DNA from: a virus | DNA: 22,731 nt | Direction: 5' to 3' (one strand) | IMG/VR virus record: IMGVR_UViG_3300035698_027840 | Span: 1 to 22,731 of that record | Shown: piece after piece, positions 1,411-21,668 of the stretch | How the letters are laid out: every line of letters starts with the position of its first letter | Position numbering within the stretch: position 1 is the stretch's first letter | Position numbers and translations under genes: made by a program | Notes under the pieces: model-generated | Database searches by the model: none | Seen by the model: the letters and a program-made list of their open reading frames with translations, nothing else | What the model was told of the DNA's origin: nothing

Positions 1411-1659
1411 TTAGATTTTTTCTTCAGCCTTCTCTTCTTCTTTAGGCTTTGCATTTGCTGCTGCTTTTTTAGACATTTCTAACAACTCTGCAAGAACAGC
1501 AAATGCTGCATCATAAGCTTCTCCAATTGGTGATCCTAATTCCATGTTGAATGAGTATCTTCTATCACCTTTTTCAATGTTAATACCCAAAAAAGGCTTA
1601 ATTTTTGAACTTACAACTTCTTTTTCTAACTCTTTAACTGATTCTGGTCCGTTTTCCAT
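1411..1659 (-). CDS. Small charged protein of unknown function
   Basis: Predicted 82 aa. I chose the ATG at 1659-1657 because GAAGGAAG lies just upstream. A longer reading to 1749 would overlap the HNH gene and has no such site. The protein starts MENGPESVKELEKEV, has a central beta-like part (KIKPFLGINIEKGDRRYSFN), then a helix (EAYDAAFAVLAELLEMSKKA), and ends in a Lys/Glu-rich tail (AKPKEEEKAEEKI). No family was recognised. It sits between the HNH gene and the beta-rich trio and probably belongs to the same late operon. Confidence 0.65.
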   Translation of the reverse strand: MENGPESVKELEKEVVSSKIKPFLGINIEKGDRRYSFNMELGSPIGEAYDAAFAVLAELLEMSKKAAANAKPKEEEKAEEKI

Positions 1660-1733
1660 ATTCTTCCTTCTTAAAAGATTAAACAAATACTGCCTACATA
1701 TACTAACAACACGGTTAATAGAGGCATAGAATT

Positions 1734-2339
1734 TTATATATCCTTCCATGTCTTCCCAGTTTTTATCGAATGCATTGTTGTCATTGATACATTATAATCT
1801 TTTGAAAGCCTAGTTGATGTAATTCCCACGTCTAACTTCTCTTTAATTTCTTTAACCTGTTCTATTGTTAACCGTTCTCCAATACATCTTCCTCTTTCCA
1901 ACTTATCCCTTTGATTATTTAAGGCTGTGCCTAAATAAAGATGGTCTGGGTTAACACATTTTGGATTATCACATTTATGCAAAACCCATAAATCATTAGT
2001 AATCTCACCTTTATATATCATCCAAGCTGCGCGATGCGCCGTATATCTTTTACCTCTAAACGTAAAATTTCCATAAGGAAGGCGACCACTGCCTTTTGTT
2101 CCACCAATCCAATTCCAGCATCCTTCACCTTTTTCAAAGAACTTCTCAAGAGACAACCTCATTTTTTCAATAACTTCTTTAGGGGTATCGTTAGCCCATT
2201 TTTCTAGTTGATTTTTTCTAGATATATCTCCAGCATACTTACAACAACACGTTCTGGAACACGTCTTAGCTCTGTCAAACTTATCTTTTCTAGGGTAAAA
2301 ATCTATACCACAAACCACACACTTCTTACTCTTTGTCAT
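1734..2339 (-). CDS. Free-standing HNH endonuclease (homing-type)
   Basis: Predicted 201 aa. Residues 7-33 hold a cysteine-rich zinc-finger-like part (C7, C10, C27, C31-C33). Residues about 74-138 match the HNH_3 type of nuclease: W-x-W, YG-x-F, then HRAAWMIYKG (H102), VLHKCDNPKCVNPDHLYLGT with H121, C123, C128, N130 and H133. The C-terminus (about 158-201) looks like a helix-turn-helix DNA-binding segment (LTIEQVKEIKEK ... LSKDYNVSMTTMHSI). Such enzymes cut DNA at specific sites and promote their own spread between phage genomes. The gene is wedged between two structural genes with intact frames on both sides. Its ribosome-binding site lies in a perfect hairpin (2342-2381), a type of control known for phage endonuclease genes. 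The target site is unknown; the group I intron in the capsid gene is one possible partner. Confidence 0.9.
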   Translation of the reverse strand: MTKSKKCVVCGIDFYPRKDKFDRAKTCSRTCCCKYAGDISRKNQLEKWANDTPKEVIEKMRLSLEKFFEKGEGCWNWIGGTKGSGRLPYGNFTFRGKRYTAHRAAWMIYKGEITNDLWVLHKCDNPKCVNPDHLYLGTALNNQRDKLERGRCIGERLTIEQVKEIKEKLDVGITSTRLSKDYNVSMTTMHSIKTGKTWKDI

Positions 2340-2341
2340 TT

Positions 2342-2381
2342 GTATACTCCTGTTAAATTTATATACTCAACAGGAGTATAC
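2342..2381 (-). promoter_or_regulatory. Hairpin hiding the HNH gene's ribosome-binding site, with a TATAAAT box in its loop
   Basis: A perfect 13-bp inverted repeat (arms 2369-2381 and 2342-2354; GTATACTCCTGTT pairs with AACAGGAGTATAC) precedes the HNH start codon at 2339. The 3' arm contains the AGGAG ribosome-binding site, 7 nt before the ATG, so a transcript entering from the tail-fibre gene upstream would fold and mask it. The 14-nt loop on the minus strand contains TATAAAT, which resembles a phage late promoter or a sigma70 -10 box. A message starting there would lack the 5' arm and be translatable. The structure is seen directly; the regulation is inferred by analogy with T4 I-TevI. Confidence 0.75.
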
Positions 2382-2403
2382 GTTATATCCCTACTTTGTC
2401 AAA

Positions 2404-4029
2404 TTATGCAGCAGTCGTAAGAGCTGTCCATGCAGTGGATCCATCTGTATTAATATAGCACCTGTCGTTTGTAGTGGTCCCATCAGTTCTGAGAAACAAC
2501 GATCCTTTAGGTGCTGTGACAGATGCATGAGGGGTTCCTGCGCCATCAATAACTTTACATCCTGAACCAGCAATAAACCCTTTTGTAGCTGTAGCTGCTT
2601 CAACATCGCCAGCCGTACTTGTTACGTTCCCAGTGGCTGCTGTAACGCCTCCTGTAGCGCTTACTCCGCCTCCAGCAACGGTCAAACCTGTGCCTGCATC
2701 AGGAGCTGCTATTGTAACTGCACCAGCTGTGGAAATATCCATTCTTTTAAGTGCTGCATCGGTTGTATCTTTATGTGTATAGAATTCCAGGTTTGCTGGA
2801 ATTCTATCTGTAGCTATAGTTCCAGAAGAAACAGACTTTAGGTACGCACCTGCAATACTACTTGTTCCATCGTCACCATAAAAACCAAAGACACCAAGAG
2901 TATCACCAGTAGTTATCACACCATCTGCTCTGTTTTTAACTACACCAATATATGCACCAGATGCATCAGCTGATTCACTAATGGCGTCAAAGTCCCCAAT
3001 AACTTGAGAGTCCCCAGTTACATTAGTTCCGCCACCATCAACGGTCAAACCTGTGCCTGCATCTGGATCTGCTATTGTAACTTCACCAGTTGTGGAAATG
3101 TCCATTCTTTTAAGTGCAACATCAGTTGTATCTTTATGTGTGTAGAATTCCAGGTTTGCTGGAATTCTGTCTGTAGCTATAGTTCCAGAAGAAACAGACT
3201 GTATATACGCACCTGCAACACCACTTGTTCCATCGTCACCATAAAAAACAAAGGCACCAAGAGTATCACCAGTAGTTATCACACCTTCTGCTCTGTTTTT
3301 AACTACACCAATATATGCACCAACTGCATCAGCTGATTGACTAATAGCGTCAAATCCTCCAATAACAGTAGAATCTCCAGTTACAGCAGTTCCGCCTAAT
3401 GTAACGATGACTCCAGTACCCGCGGTTACTGTTGTAGCTGCGCTTACTGCTCCAGCTGTTGCAACCAGATCTCCAGCATCGGCTGTTATGTTGCCGAGCG
3501 TGCTAGAGATTCCTGTACCACTGGTAATTGTTGTACCTGCCGTTACTGCAAGGGCTGCGCTAACTAAACCAGCAGATGAAACAATATTACCGAGCGTTGC
3601 TGTGATGTTGCCAGCACTTGCCAAAAGTCCACCAGTCGTGGCAATGAACCCAGTACCAGCGGTACAAGTAGTTCCAGAACCAAGAGTTGTACCTGCCGTT
3701 ACTGCAAGGGCTGCACTTACTGATCCGGCCGATGAGGTTATATTTCCAAGCGTTGCGATTATGTTGCCAGCACTTGCCGTGATATTGCCGGGAGAAATAG
3801 TTAATGTAGTAAACACACCCGCTCCACCACCGCAGCCCATCCACAATGCATTATTGGCAAGAATTCTAGTAAGAATATAGACGTCGTCGTTTGGTTGATC
3901 TATCCAAACAGTTCCAATCTCATATTTGTCAGAAGTAACAGGTGCTCTTTGAGCAACAACCGGTGCTGGAAAAAGATCAATTAAGCCTTGCCCCACACCA
4001 TAAGACATATACTTTTTTCTGGATGCCAT
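2404..4029 (-). CDS. Repetitive tail-fibre protein
   Basis: Predicted 541 aa. The start is the ATG at 4029, with AAAGGA 7 nt upstream; an upstream in-frame TTG would lie between that site and the ATG. The N-terminal 60 residues (LIDLFPAPVV ... KYEIGTVWIDQPNDDVYIL) look like a virion-attachment part. Residues about 75-210 are short Ala/Gly/Thr/Ser repeats (GNITATLGNIVSSAG, AALAVTAGTT), suggesting a beta-helical shaft. Residues about 213-454 are two copies of a 121-residue unit containing YIGVVKNRA, FYGDDGTS and IPANLEFYTHKDTTD. The C-terminus (SLFLRTDGTTTNDRCYINTD) resembles the end of many fibre and pectin-lyase-like phage proteins. Likely a receptor-contacting fibre or appendage. It is the first gene of this minus-strand group, beyond the plus-strand cassette. 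Confidence 0.82.
   Translation of the reverse strand: MASRKKYMSYGVGQGLIDLFPAPVVAQRAPVTSDKYEIGTVWIDQPNDDVYILTRILANNALWMGCGGGAGVFTTLTISPGNITASAGNIIATLGNITSSAGSVSAALAVTAGTTLGSGTTCTAGTGFIATTGGLLASAGNITATLGNIVSSAGLVSAALAVTAGTTITSGTGISSTLGNITADAGDLVATAGAVSAATTVTAGTGVIVTLGGTAVTGDSTVIGGFDAISQSADAVGAYIGVVKNRAEGVITTGDTLGAFVFYGDDGTSGVAGAYIQSVSSGTIATDRIPANLEFYTHKDTTDVALKRMDISTTGEVTIADPDAGTGLTVDGGGTNVTGDSQVIGDFDAISESADASGAYIGVVKNRADGVITTGDTLGVFGFYGDDGTSSIAGAYLKSVSSGTIATDRIPANLEFYTHKDTTDAALKRMDISTAGAVTIAAPDAGTGLTVAGGGVSATGGVTAATGNVTSTAGDVEAATATKGFIAGSGCKVIDGAGTPHASVTAPKGSLFLRTDGTTTNDRCYINTDGSTAWTALTTAA
2668..3393 (-). repeat. Tandem duplication, two 363-bp units, inside the tail-fibre gene
   Basis: Units at about 2668-3030 and 3031-3393 match at a constant offset of 363 bp (for example AACGGTCAAACCTGTGCC at 2677 and again at 3040), exactly 121 codons. 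Long stretches are identical, including the segments coding for IPANLEFYTHKDTTD and ALKRMDIS, so the duplication is recent or kept similar by gene conversion. Confidence 0.92.
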
Positions 4030-4122
4030 CTCCAATTCCTTTCTTGTATAAATAAAATATAGAACAACTACTTAATAACTTGATATAAACATAAAACAAT
4101 ATCTACTTATTTAAAATATAAC

Positions 4123-19473: not shown

Positions 19474-19806
19474 CTACCAATATCTGAAGCTTACCAAACT
19501 ACGATAGCACTCACTGCAGCAAGATCTAGGCTTTAAAGAAGTAAAAGCAGATCTTGTTTTTACCAACTCCTTACCACATCTACACCTACATAAAAACTCT
19601 AAAGCGTTGATGCTATCTTTCTTTTTAATGATTTTAACTACCGTCCATTGCCCTCGCTTATCACCTACCTCAATTGAACTAAGGTGTTGTCTTAAATCAA
19701 AAAGCTCACTCCCTCTTTCTCCATATTTTTCAATCGCATCTCCCAGCGTAGTCCCACGCGGATATATCCCAAGTTGTCTAAATATTTCAATACGTTTTTT
19801 TTCCAT
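19474..19806 (-). CDS. Zinc-ribbon protein, copy A
   Basis: Predicted 110 aa. The N-terminal half is helical (EIFRQLGIYPRGTTLGDAIE). The C-terminal half is a four-cysteine zinc ribbon: DKRGQWTVVKIIKKK, then CRCRCGKELVKTRSAFTSLK, then SCCSECYRS. This layout (G.W.V, CxCG, then CxxC) is common in small phage proteins and in the N-terminal part of some homing endonucleases. The gene at 21363-21668 has the same layout, so the two probably share ancestry and now flank the large terminase gene. No nuclease core is present, so it is probably a DNA- or RNA-binding protein or a relic of a mobile endonuclease. Confidence 0.7.
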   Translation of the reverse strand: MEKKRIEIFRQLGIYPRGTTLGDAIEKYGERGSELFDLRQHLSSIEVGDKRGQWTVVKIIKKKDSINALEFLCRCRCGKELVKTRSAFTSLKPRSCCSECYRSLVSFRYW

Positions 19807-19999: not shown

Positions 20000-21362
20000 T
20001 TAATACTTAGAAAAGCCATCATTAAAAAAACCAGGCAACTGTTGATTTCCAGACATAGCCTCTCTGTAGTTTTTATCTATGTCTTCAGCAGAAAGACCAT
20101 CTCTGGTTTTAGGCAAGGATAAACAAAGATACCTAAAGCTATCAGCAAAATTACTTGAAGAATCGTGAAGTGGTTTGCCACGATAAATCTTTCTCTTCGA
20201 GTCATACTCCTGTCTATAACTTTCTATAGCCTTTAAAAGAGGCTGAGCTTTTGTTTCATCAAGCCAAACCTTAGCAAATGTTGACCGACAAGCCTCTATC
20301 CCATCCTCAAGTGATAATTTAGGGGCAATAAGAAACCTTATTCCAAGTTGTCTGGCCTTTTCCAGCCGAGAAACCCCTGTACCCAATTCACGCACAGCAA
20401 TGTCGTGAGGAGCAAAATGCTTACCATAAGTATAATCAAGAGAACTAAGATACTTAATATAAAACTCAAGGCCCTGTGAAGTATTTTCATAACAATCAAT
20501 TATTCGTACCGTCGTTCCTATTGTTTGAAAGAATATGATCGATGTTGCATCCCTCATGCCGAGATCCCATGATGTGTGGACCTTAAATGCTGGCTCCCAT
20601 GGCACTGTAGTTATCTGACCGTTCAACCTCATTTTGTCCAAATAGCGTGAATAATAACTACCTTCTATACCAAGGTCAAACGACGTGAAATATTCCTGCA
20701 TGATAAGATCTTCAGACATCAGTCCCTCAGCCTTCTCTTTCTCTATCTGATGACGAGATATATGGCAGGTCTCATCGAGCGTTAGCTTATAACAAAACCA
20801 ATCAGGAGAGTTTTGTGCAATTTGATAAAGCTCATAAAGATGGTTTTGACGGCCACGTGGAGTAGACTCGAAAATCGCCCACCCACCGTTAGCCACCAGA
20901 ATTGGCCTTAAAAACTGGTAAGCCTTGGGATCTTGAATCGCATACTCTGAAAATACACAACCTCTTGGGTTAGTTCCGCAAATGCTATCAATATTTTCAC
21001 TTCCTATCAGCTGAATAAGCGATCCATTGGATAAGAAGACTTTCATTTCCTGAGAATTGGAAGAACTCACTAAAGTTGGAGGAATGAAATCCCTAAAACG
21101 CATGCCCTCATTTGTTATGGAATCCCATATAACCTTCTTAGCCTGAGAATAGGTTGGAAAGATGTAGTAATAGACTCCTACCTTGCGTAGAGCCTGGCGT
21201 ATTAATAGGTTCCAACAAACAATGTCTTTACCCAGCGCGTCGAGGCCAGATGGCCAGGACGCGCTTATATCCTTTATTTTCTATAGCATCAAAGATAGGT
21301 AACTGATATGTCCTGGGAACAAATTTGTTTAAGTATATTTTATTTTCTATGTCGGTTGCCAT
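20000..21362 (-). CDS. terL: Large terminase subunit (packaging ATPase and nuclease), read in two frames
   Basis: The ATG at 21362 directly follows the stop of the zinc-ribbon gene, with AGGGAAGG upstream. Frame 1 runs 44 codons to ...LAIWPRRAG and stops at TAA 21230-21228. Skipping one T (21230) continues as KDIVCWNLLIRQALRKVG... to the stop at 20000, giving 453 aa. The joined sequence RRAGKD is the Walker A motif of the packaging ATPase. GCVFSEYA (about residues 134-141) is Walker B with the catalytic Glu. The C-terminal half has HTSWDLGMRDATSIIFF and NFADSFRYL, with acidic residues of the RNase-H-like nuclease that cuts concatemers. No alternative start exists in the second frame before the ATG at 21103, which lies beyond the Walker A motif. 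The break is therefore a programmed +1 frameshift, a sequencing error or a disabling mutation. Confidence 0.9.
21227..21233 (-). other. terL: Frameshift site in terL (GGG TAA A)
   Basis: On the minus strand the zero-frame codons are GCT GGG TAA AGA. Moving one base forward at GGG gives GGT AAA GAC, which keeps glycine in the P site (GGG to GGT) and meets Lys-Asp of Walker A. A stop codon after a slippery codon is the layout of known +1 sites such as that of RF2, although no Shine-Dalgarno-like stimulator was seen just upstream. Confidence 0.6.
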
Positions 21363-21668
21363 TTAACAGCCTTCCCTAAAAAAAGGTCGTCTTTTATTCT
21401 TCTTACGAGCTAGTCGAAACGCTTTATCGATACAATATGAACACATAAGGTTTTTATTCTGTCTAATTTTTGAATATTTAAGAATGGCTTCTGTACCACA
21501 AGAGCATCTTGCCCTATACACCTTCCTCCCATTATCATCCCTATTCCTTTCAATTATTGTCCATTCCCCAATAACATCTCCAGGATAAAAATCAAAGGGG
21601 ATGCGTTTCTTAGCGTTACCTCTTTCTACACGCAAAACCTCCGAATCTAAAACAGTTACTCTTTTCAT
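21363..21668 (-). CDS. Zinc-ribbon protein, copy B
   Basis: Predicted 101 aa. The ATG overlaps a stop codon upstream (TAATG at 21670-21666), and its own TAA abuts the large terminase start. A basic N-terminus (MKRVTVLDSEVLRVERGNAK) precedes a zinc ribbon: GDVIGEWTIIERNRDDN, then ARCSCGTEAILKYSKIRQN, then MCSYCIDKAF, with a Lys/Arg-rich end (RLARKKNKRRPF). The cysteine spacing (CxCG, then CxxC) and the G.WTxI core match copy A at 19474-19806. The directly preceding stop belongs to a leftover small-terminase tail, so this gene may have arrived with a rearrangement between terS and terL. Function unknown; nucleic-acid binding is likely. Confidence 0.72.
   Translation of the reverse strand: MKRVTVLDSEVLRVERGNAKKRIPFDFYPGDVIGEWTIIERNRDDNGRKVYRARCSCGTEAILKYSKIRQNKNLMCSYCIDKAFRLARKKNKRRPFFREGC

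Follow-up and report, generated by a model that had tools for sequence, protein, structure and literature searches.

A hairpin masking the Shine–Dalgarno sequence and a putative nested promoter upstream of an HNH endonuclease gene in a phage with a P22-type portal

The HNH gene, its neighbours and its leader

The viral DNA analysed here (22,731 nucleotides, positions 1 to 22,731 of IMG/VR record IMGVR_UViG_3300035698_027840; hereafter the window) comes from a phage with a P22-type portal, for which no close relative was found among deposited phages, the portal identity being at most 24% among the matches listed. On its minus strand an HNH endonuclease gene lies directly after a tail-fibre-like gene, and its leader, which reads TAATTTGACAAAGTAGGGATATAACGTATACTCCTGTTGAGTATATAAATTTAACAGGAGTATACAAATG from 5' to 3' on that strand, carries a hairpin and a promoter-like site. 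The features, in the direction of reading, are as follows.

2404..4035, minus strand: tail-fibre-like gene, directly upstream of the HNH gene and co-directional with it; its stop lies 22 nt before the stem
2397..2402, minus strand: -35 box TTGACA (6/6), with a 16-nt spacer to the -10 box; shuffle P 0.004 taken alone
2375..2380, minus strand: -10 box TATACT (5/6), part of the 5' arm
2369..2381, minus strand: 5' arm GTATACTCCTGTT, anti-Shine–Dalgarno sequence and -10 box in one
2366..2370, minus strand: predicted transcription start, about 7 nt 3' of the -10 box at the end of the 5' arm, placed from promoter geometry and the folding of truncated RNA
2355..2368, minus strand: loop of 14 nt, with TATAAAT at 2363-2357
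2342..2354, minus strand: 3' arm AACAGGAGTATAC, with the Shine–Dalgarno sequence inside
2347..2351, minus strand: Shine–Dalgarno sequence AGGAG, 7 nt 5' of the ATG at 2339
1734..2339, minus strand: HNH endonuclease gene, 201 aa; Pfam HNH_3 39.3 bits (cut-off 24.8 bits); PHROG endonuclease/HNH families
1411..1749, minus strand: small gene downstream of the HNH gene; its relative follows the fibre gene in a record that lacks the HNH gene (L011)

The HNH gene starts 64 nt past the stop of the fibre-like gene. Its product consists of a Cys-rich N-terminus, the HNH_3 core and a C-terminus resembling a helix–turn–helix (HTH), and also matches zf-His_Me_endon weakly. Residues H102, H121, N130 and H133 are invariant among the aligned members of its clade (described below), as befits a catalytic HNH domain. 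A profile search of the PDB with this protein gave nothing useful and no solved close relative. From these sequence features, the gene is a probable free-standing homing endonuclease gene.

Elsewhere in the window, the frame of the large terminase gene is broken near 21230 (21050-21330, minus strand): the N-terminus and the beginning of the ATP-binding motif share one frame, and the rest (20000-21103 and just upstream) is in another, a break that may reflect sequencing error, decay or recoding. On either side of the terminase gene, small Cys-rich proteins are encoded on the minus strand (19474-19806 and 21363-21668); they resemble part of the phrog_374 HNH endonuclease family, lack the Pfam HNH core and are perhaps HNH endonuclease remnants. 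The Shine–Dalgarno sequences in the leaders of these two genes are not masked.

In the leader of the HNH gene, the earlier note had pointed to a perfect 13-bp inverted repeat that hides AGGAG and to a TATAAAT in the hairpin loop, and both are indeed present. The repeat, at 2342-2381 on the minus strand, stands alone: no other perfect 13-bp inverted repeat with a loop of 3-30 nt exists in the window, and 0.03 would be expected from mononucleotide shuffles. The leader RNA is predicted to fold with -22.9 kcal/mol (z = -6.4; 0/200 shuffles were equally stable), and the probability that the Shine–Dalgarno sequence is unpaired is 0.000. This is the most occluded Shine–Dalgarno sequence in the window (next 0.008, then 0.08) among 32 gene starts examined, 25 of which had a scorable Shine–Dalgarno sequence at the start chosen. 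A scan of the window against Rfam gave no match to a known cis-regulatory RNA family. An intrinsic terminator was considered for the same hairpin and rejected: a U-tract is absent, AAATG follows the 3' arm and the leader is not among the terminator-like sites that the scan found.

Related loci and co-variation of the hairpin arms

Relatives were gathered by searches of viral contigs, the records of which are fragments. They yielded four more genes of the HNH subfamily to which the window gene belongs, with proteins 67% (L001), 51% (L312) and ∼45% (L072 and L073) identical to that of the window, and in a tree of 86 genes these four and the window gene form one clade with support of 99/98. The HNH gene directly follows a fibre-like gene in all five, the window fibre gene sharing its N-terminus and its ..WTALTTAA end with the fibre genes that adjoin the HNH gene in relatives, and on the 3' side of the clade genes lie homologues of the next small genes of the window. 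The syntenic relatives L011, L014 and L015 have the fibre gene and the genes after it, with no HNH gene between them. Judged from these sequences, presence and absence at one site is as expected for a mobile, free-standing endonuclease, and the view of the earlier note that the gene is a mobile endonuclease is upheld insofar as it behaves as a mobile insertion.

In the three relatives that lack the HNH gene, the fibre stop is followed by a strong hairpin ahead of the next gene (L011 14615-14760, L014 15933-16020 and L015 10900-11040), and the next Shine–Dalgarno sequence is left unmasked. L073 and L312 have their next strong hairpin only beyond the HNH gene, so that the fibre mRNA should run through the HNH gene; in the scan of the window, no terminator-like site was found between the fibre gene and the HNH gene.

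A hairpin that masks the Shine–Dalgarno sequence is found in all five clade leaders, the letters of the arms differing (stems GTATACTCC.., ACGTATACTCTTT.., GTGATAGGATCTT.., CATATGATACTCTT.., AAGCATTCTATA..). When the arms are anchored on the Shine–Dalgarno sequence, each pairs with its own partner at a mean of 11.8/12 positions, compared with 7.8 for swapped arms, and among 120 permutations the true pairing ranks first. Changes on both sides are seen at 7/12 pair positions across the five leaders, which is the co-variation of the two arms that had been proposed as a check, and no clade member keeps the gene without the pairing. On this comparison of leaders, the clade hairpin is real and under selection, and it is inherited within the HNH clade. 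Predicted folding, Shine–Dalgarno accessibility and co-variation agree in pointing to sequestration of the Shine–Dalgarno sequence by an RNA hairpin on the read-through transcript.

A putative promoter in the 5' arm and the proposed switch

The site TTGACA-16-TATACT was first flagged by a -35/-10 scan of the window, and this consensus sigma-70-type promoter had been missed by the earlier note, which placed the promoter in the loop. The favoured promoter lies further upstream, with its -10 box in the 5' arm, as in T4 gene e (PMC3014915). The top sigma-70-like site across the whole leader has its -10 box within the 5' arm in 5/5 clade members, with a tie in L073. The sites of the other four members are as follows.

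L001: TTGACT-16-TATACT
L312: TAGACA-16-TAGGAT
L073: TTTACG-17-TATGAT
L072: TTGACA-17-CATTCT

Promoters were scored against the sigma-70 consensus, which may not be that of the host. Summed over the five leaders, the -35 boxes match TTGACA at 26/30 positions, compared with 16.1 (sd 1.75) in shuffles (0/20000), a test that, like the Fisher test, overstates independence since these leaders share ancestry. The -35 box lies outside the stem, and pairing therefore does not force it. Some -10 boxes are weak (CATTCT in L072, and CATCCT in L314, a more distant relative considered below). In all five leaders the site is placed such that its own transcript, from the predicted start, would lack the 5' arm. 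In RNA from that start, the probability that the Shine–Dalgarno sequence is unpaired rises from 0.000-0.002 to 0.35-0.70 in 5/5 leaders, the window leader going from 0.000 for the full leader to 0.67.

On the basis of these sequences, a two-transcript switch is the probable arrangement, in which a homing endonuclease gene is silenced by the hairpin on read-through RNA of the fibre gene and expressed from a nested promoter. RNA reading through from the fibre gene would contain both arms, the hairpin would fold and the Shine–Dalgarno sequence would be buried, so that the structural message would give little endonuclease. The fibre stop lies 22 nt before the stem, so that a terminating ribosome presumably need not melt it. 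RNA from the nested promoter would begin at the loop without the 5' arm, the Shine–Dalgarno sequence would thus be freed and the enzyme would be made. Here, homing activity, actual silencing, timing and the transcription start are inferred from sequence. The long transcript is structural and probably late and the nested promoter looks to be of the host type, and the timing may thus be the reverse of that in T4. It is possible, although doubtful, that host-type promoters within hairpins that mask the ribosome-binding site form a general control cassette of free-standing endonuclease genes within the structural modules of non-T4 phages, silent late and expressed early by the host sigma factor.

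The hairpin might instead act as a plain damper that lowers endonuclease translation on the structural mRNA, the promoter boxes being incidental and no separate transcript being made. This is unlikely, although it is in keeping with the Endonuclease-VII-type leaders described below, which keep the hairpin, most of them with a poor promoter match, and TATACTCC partly follows from the need to pair with GGAGTATA. However, such a damper leaves the -35 box unexplained, since this lies outside the stem and is kept at a fixed distance in the HNH clade at a level that the shuffles did not reach. Furthermore, a gene that is hardly translated could presumably not spread by homing, and some bypass of the hairpin would therefore be expected. 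It is very improbable that the loop TATAAAT is a T4-style late promoter that drives late transcripts, as the earlier note had proposed. T4 late-promoter spacing puts the start for this box near 2350, inside the Shine–Dalgarno sequence AGGAG. The motif does occur in the window loop, and late promoters are in use at T4 homing genes (PMC2988022), but the loops of L001, L312, L072 and L073 lack it, and the geometry is wrong. No T4 late or middle promoter was recognized, the best site being sigma-70-like with a -35 box. A search for a sigma-factor gene in eight related records, which are fragments, also gave none, the single weak match being the C-terminus of the HNH gene itself; a search of the eight records for a phage RNA polymerase gave no match, and neither did its control searches.

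Two further readings concern the origin of the palindrome and its binding partner. The strong hairpins after the fibre stop in L011, L014 and L015 could suggest descent from a hairpin that closes the fibre mRNA, as a terminator or a 3'-end stabilizer, with masking of the Shine–Dalgarno sequence as a by-product. This is hardly credible, in that a U-tract is missing from the window leader, which the scan did not list as terminator-like, a further strong hairpin is kept separately beyond the HNH gene in L073 and L312, and the Shine–Dalgarno sequence is in the stem in 6/6 leaders (the five of the clade and L314). Equally, the palindrome overlaps the -10 box, and I-TevI binds an operator over its own late promoter (PMC2988022), which would fit a DNA operator at which the endonuclease represses its own gene. 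As the sole role of the palindrome, this is most improbable: the arms differ widely among proteins 42-67% identical to that of the window while the pairing is kept, which is expected for RNA and not for a protein site. An operator role could still exist besides the RNA hairpin.

Occurrence in other genes and comparison with known systems

A masked Shine–Dalgarno sequence is combined with an arm promoter scoring at least 9/12 in 5/86 HNH genes, all in the clade and hence related, and in 1/847 neighbouring genes, the start codons of which were picked by rule (p = 3e-5). HNH_3 genes as a whole do not share the trait: Shine–Dalgarno occlusion at P < 0.01 is seen in 10/86 HNH genes, half of the ten being from one clade, and in 18/847 others. 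The masking hairpin is missing in 76/86 HNH_3 genes, and it is therefore a lineage trait or a recurring solution and not a rule.

A sixth, more distant HNH gene, in L314, occupies the same spot after a fibre gene and has TTGACT and a stem that masks the Shine–Dalgarno sequence; its arm site scores 8/12, the best-scoring site elsewhere in the leader reaching 9/12. It was rejected as an independent acquisition, a single clade with the five not being rejected (p-AU 0.76). Hairpins that mask the Shine–Dalgarno sequence were also found in Endonuclease-VII-type genes (PF02945; L152-L175), one of which, in L154, follows a capsid-like gene. These hairpins hold the Shine–Dalgarno sequence and often the start codon, with changes on both sides at 6/11 consensus pairs. 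Most of the promoter matches in these leaders are 6-9/12, with mostly 3-4/6 for the -35 box; scored singly, L152, L154, L155, L158, L161 and L162 reach 9/12 and L175 reaches 11/12. In the deduplicated set, a masked Shine–Dalgarno sequence with a promoter of at least 9/12 was found in 0/21. A nested-promoter rule for this family was accordingly rejected, and, the promoter signal being uneven, the hairpin alone is claimed for it. The question of convergence or transfer raised by the earlier note is thus answered in part: the hairpin is inherited within the HNH clade, common descent with L314 was not rejected, and the presence of such hairpins in a different family favours an independent origin there.

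The likeness to the control of T4 homing endonuclease genes seen in the earlier note is supported by the literature. Hairpin regulation has been described for I-TevI, I-TevII, I-TevIII, T4 segB and Aeh1 mobE in T4-like phages, and in T4 the long early and middle transcripts of homing endonuclease genes are silent and the late transcripts are active (PMC2988022). As in these systems, the Shine–Dalgarno sequence would be buried on long read-through transcripts, a transcript from the gene's own promoter (here predicted) would lack the 5' arm, and the endonuclease gene is embedded in the transcription unit of another gene. However, the lineage of the window has a P22-type portal, its promoter is sigma-70-like with a -35 box and not T4 late TATAAATA, its read-through mRNA is structural and probably late so that the timing may be reversed, and no intron was seen in the window HNH case. 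T4 gene e, which encodes lysozyme, has a late promoter in the 5' strand of an inhibitory structure (PMC3014915), an arrangement like that in the window, but gene e does not encode an endonuclease and its promoter is of the late-sigma type. The window protein shares with I-HmuI-type HNH endonucleases (Pfam HNH_3/zf-His_Me_endon) an HNH_3 core above the curated cut-off, whereas the window gene is free-standing after a fibre gene. The Endonuclease-VII-type genes resemble it in the co-varying hairpin around the Shine–Dalgarno sequence and in placement after a structural gene, but belong to another endonuclease family, and the nested promoter is weak or absent in many. No report of homing endonuclease control by a hairpin plus a promoter outside T4-like phages was found in the open-licence papers searched.

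The sequences would place a T4-like control logic, backed by co-variation, in a phage lineage other than that of T4 and with a promoter of the host type. A single stretch of 13 nt would serve as both -10 box and anti-Shine–Dalgarno sequence, a compact design that other selfish genes could easily reach. It would offer an easy route to the timing of such genes in phages that lack a sigma factor of their own, and hairpin plus nested promoter could be used as a sequence signature for finding more cases.

The exact letters of the arms were rejected as such a signature, since a pattern search with them also matched leaders of T4-like structural genes and of a NUMOD3 endonuclease gene (L005), and they are thus not specific. 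Arms TACTCCTGTT/AACAGGAGTA also surround the Shine–Dalgarno sequence of structural-type genes in other phages (L002, L006, L008, L004, L007 and L009), including genes for a neck-like protein and a protein with an Mtd_N domain, with CTAAATA or TATACATA within the loop. In the NUMOD3 leader (L005 2509-2534), these arms enclose a loop of 6 nt and TTAATAAATA stands immediately 5' of the 5' arm; this leader is possibly a T4-style version. Near-perfect TATACTCC..GGAGTATA palindromes were also observed in contigs of 218-238 kb (L039, L043, L040 and L058), mostly with no long open reading frame at the expected start, and one 218-kb contig contains two such sites.
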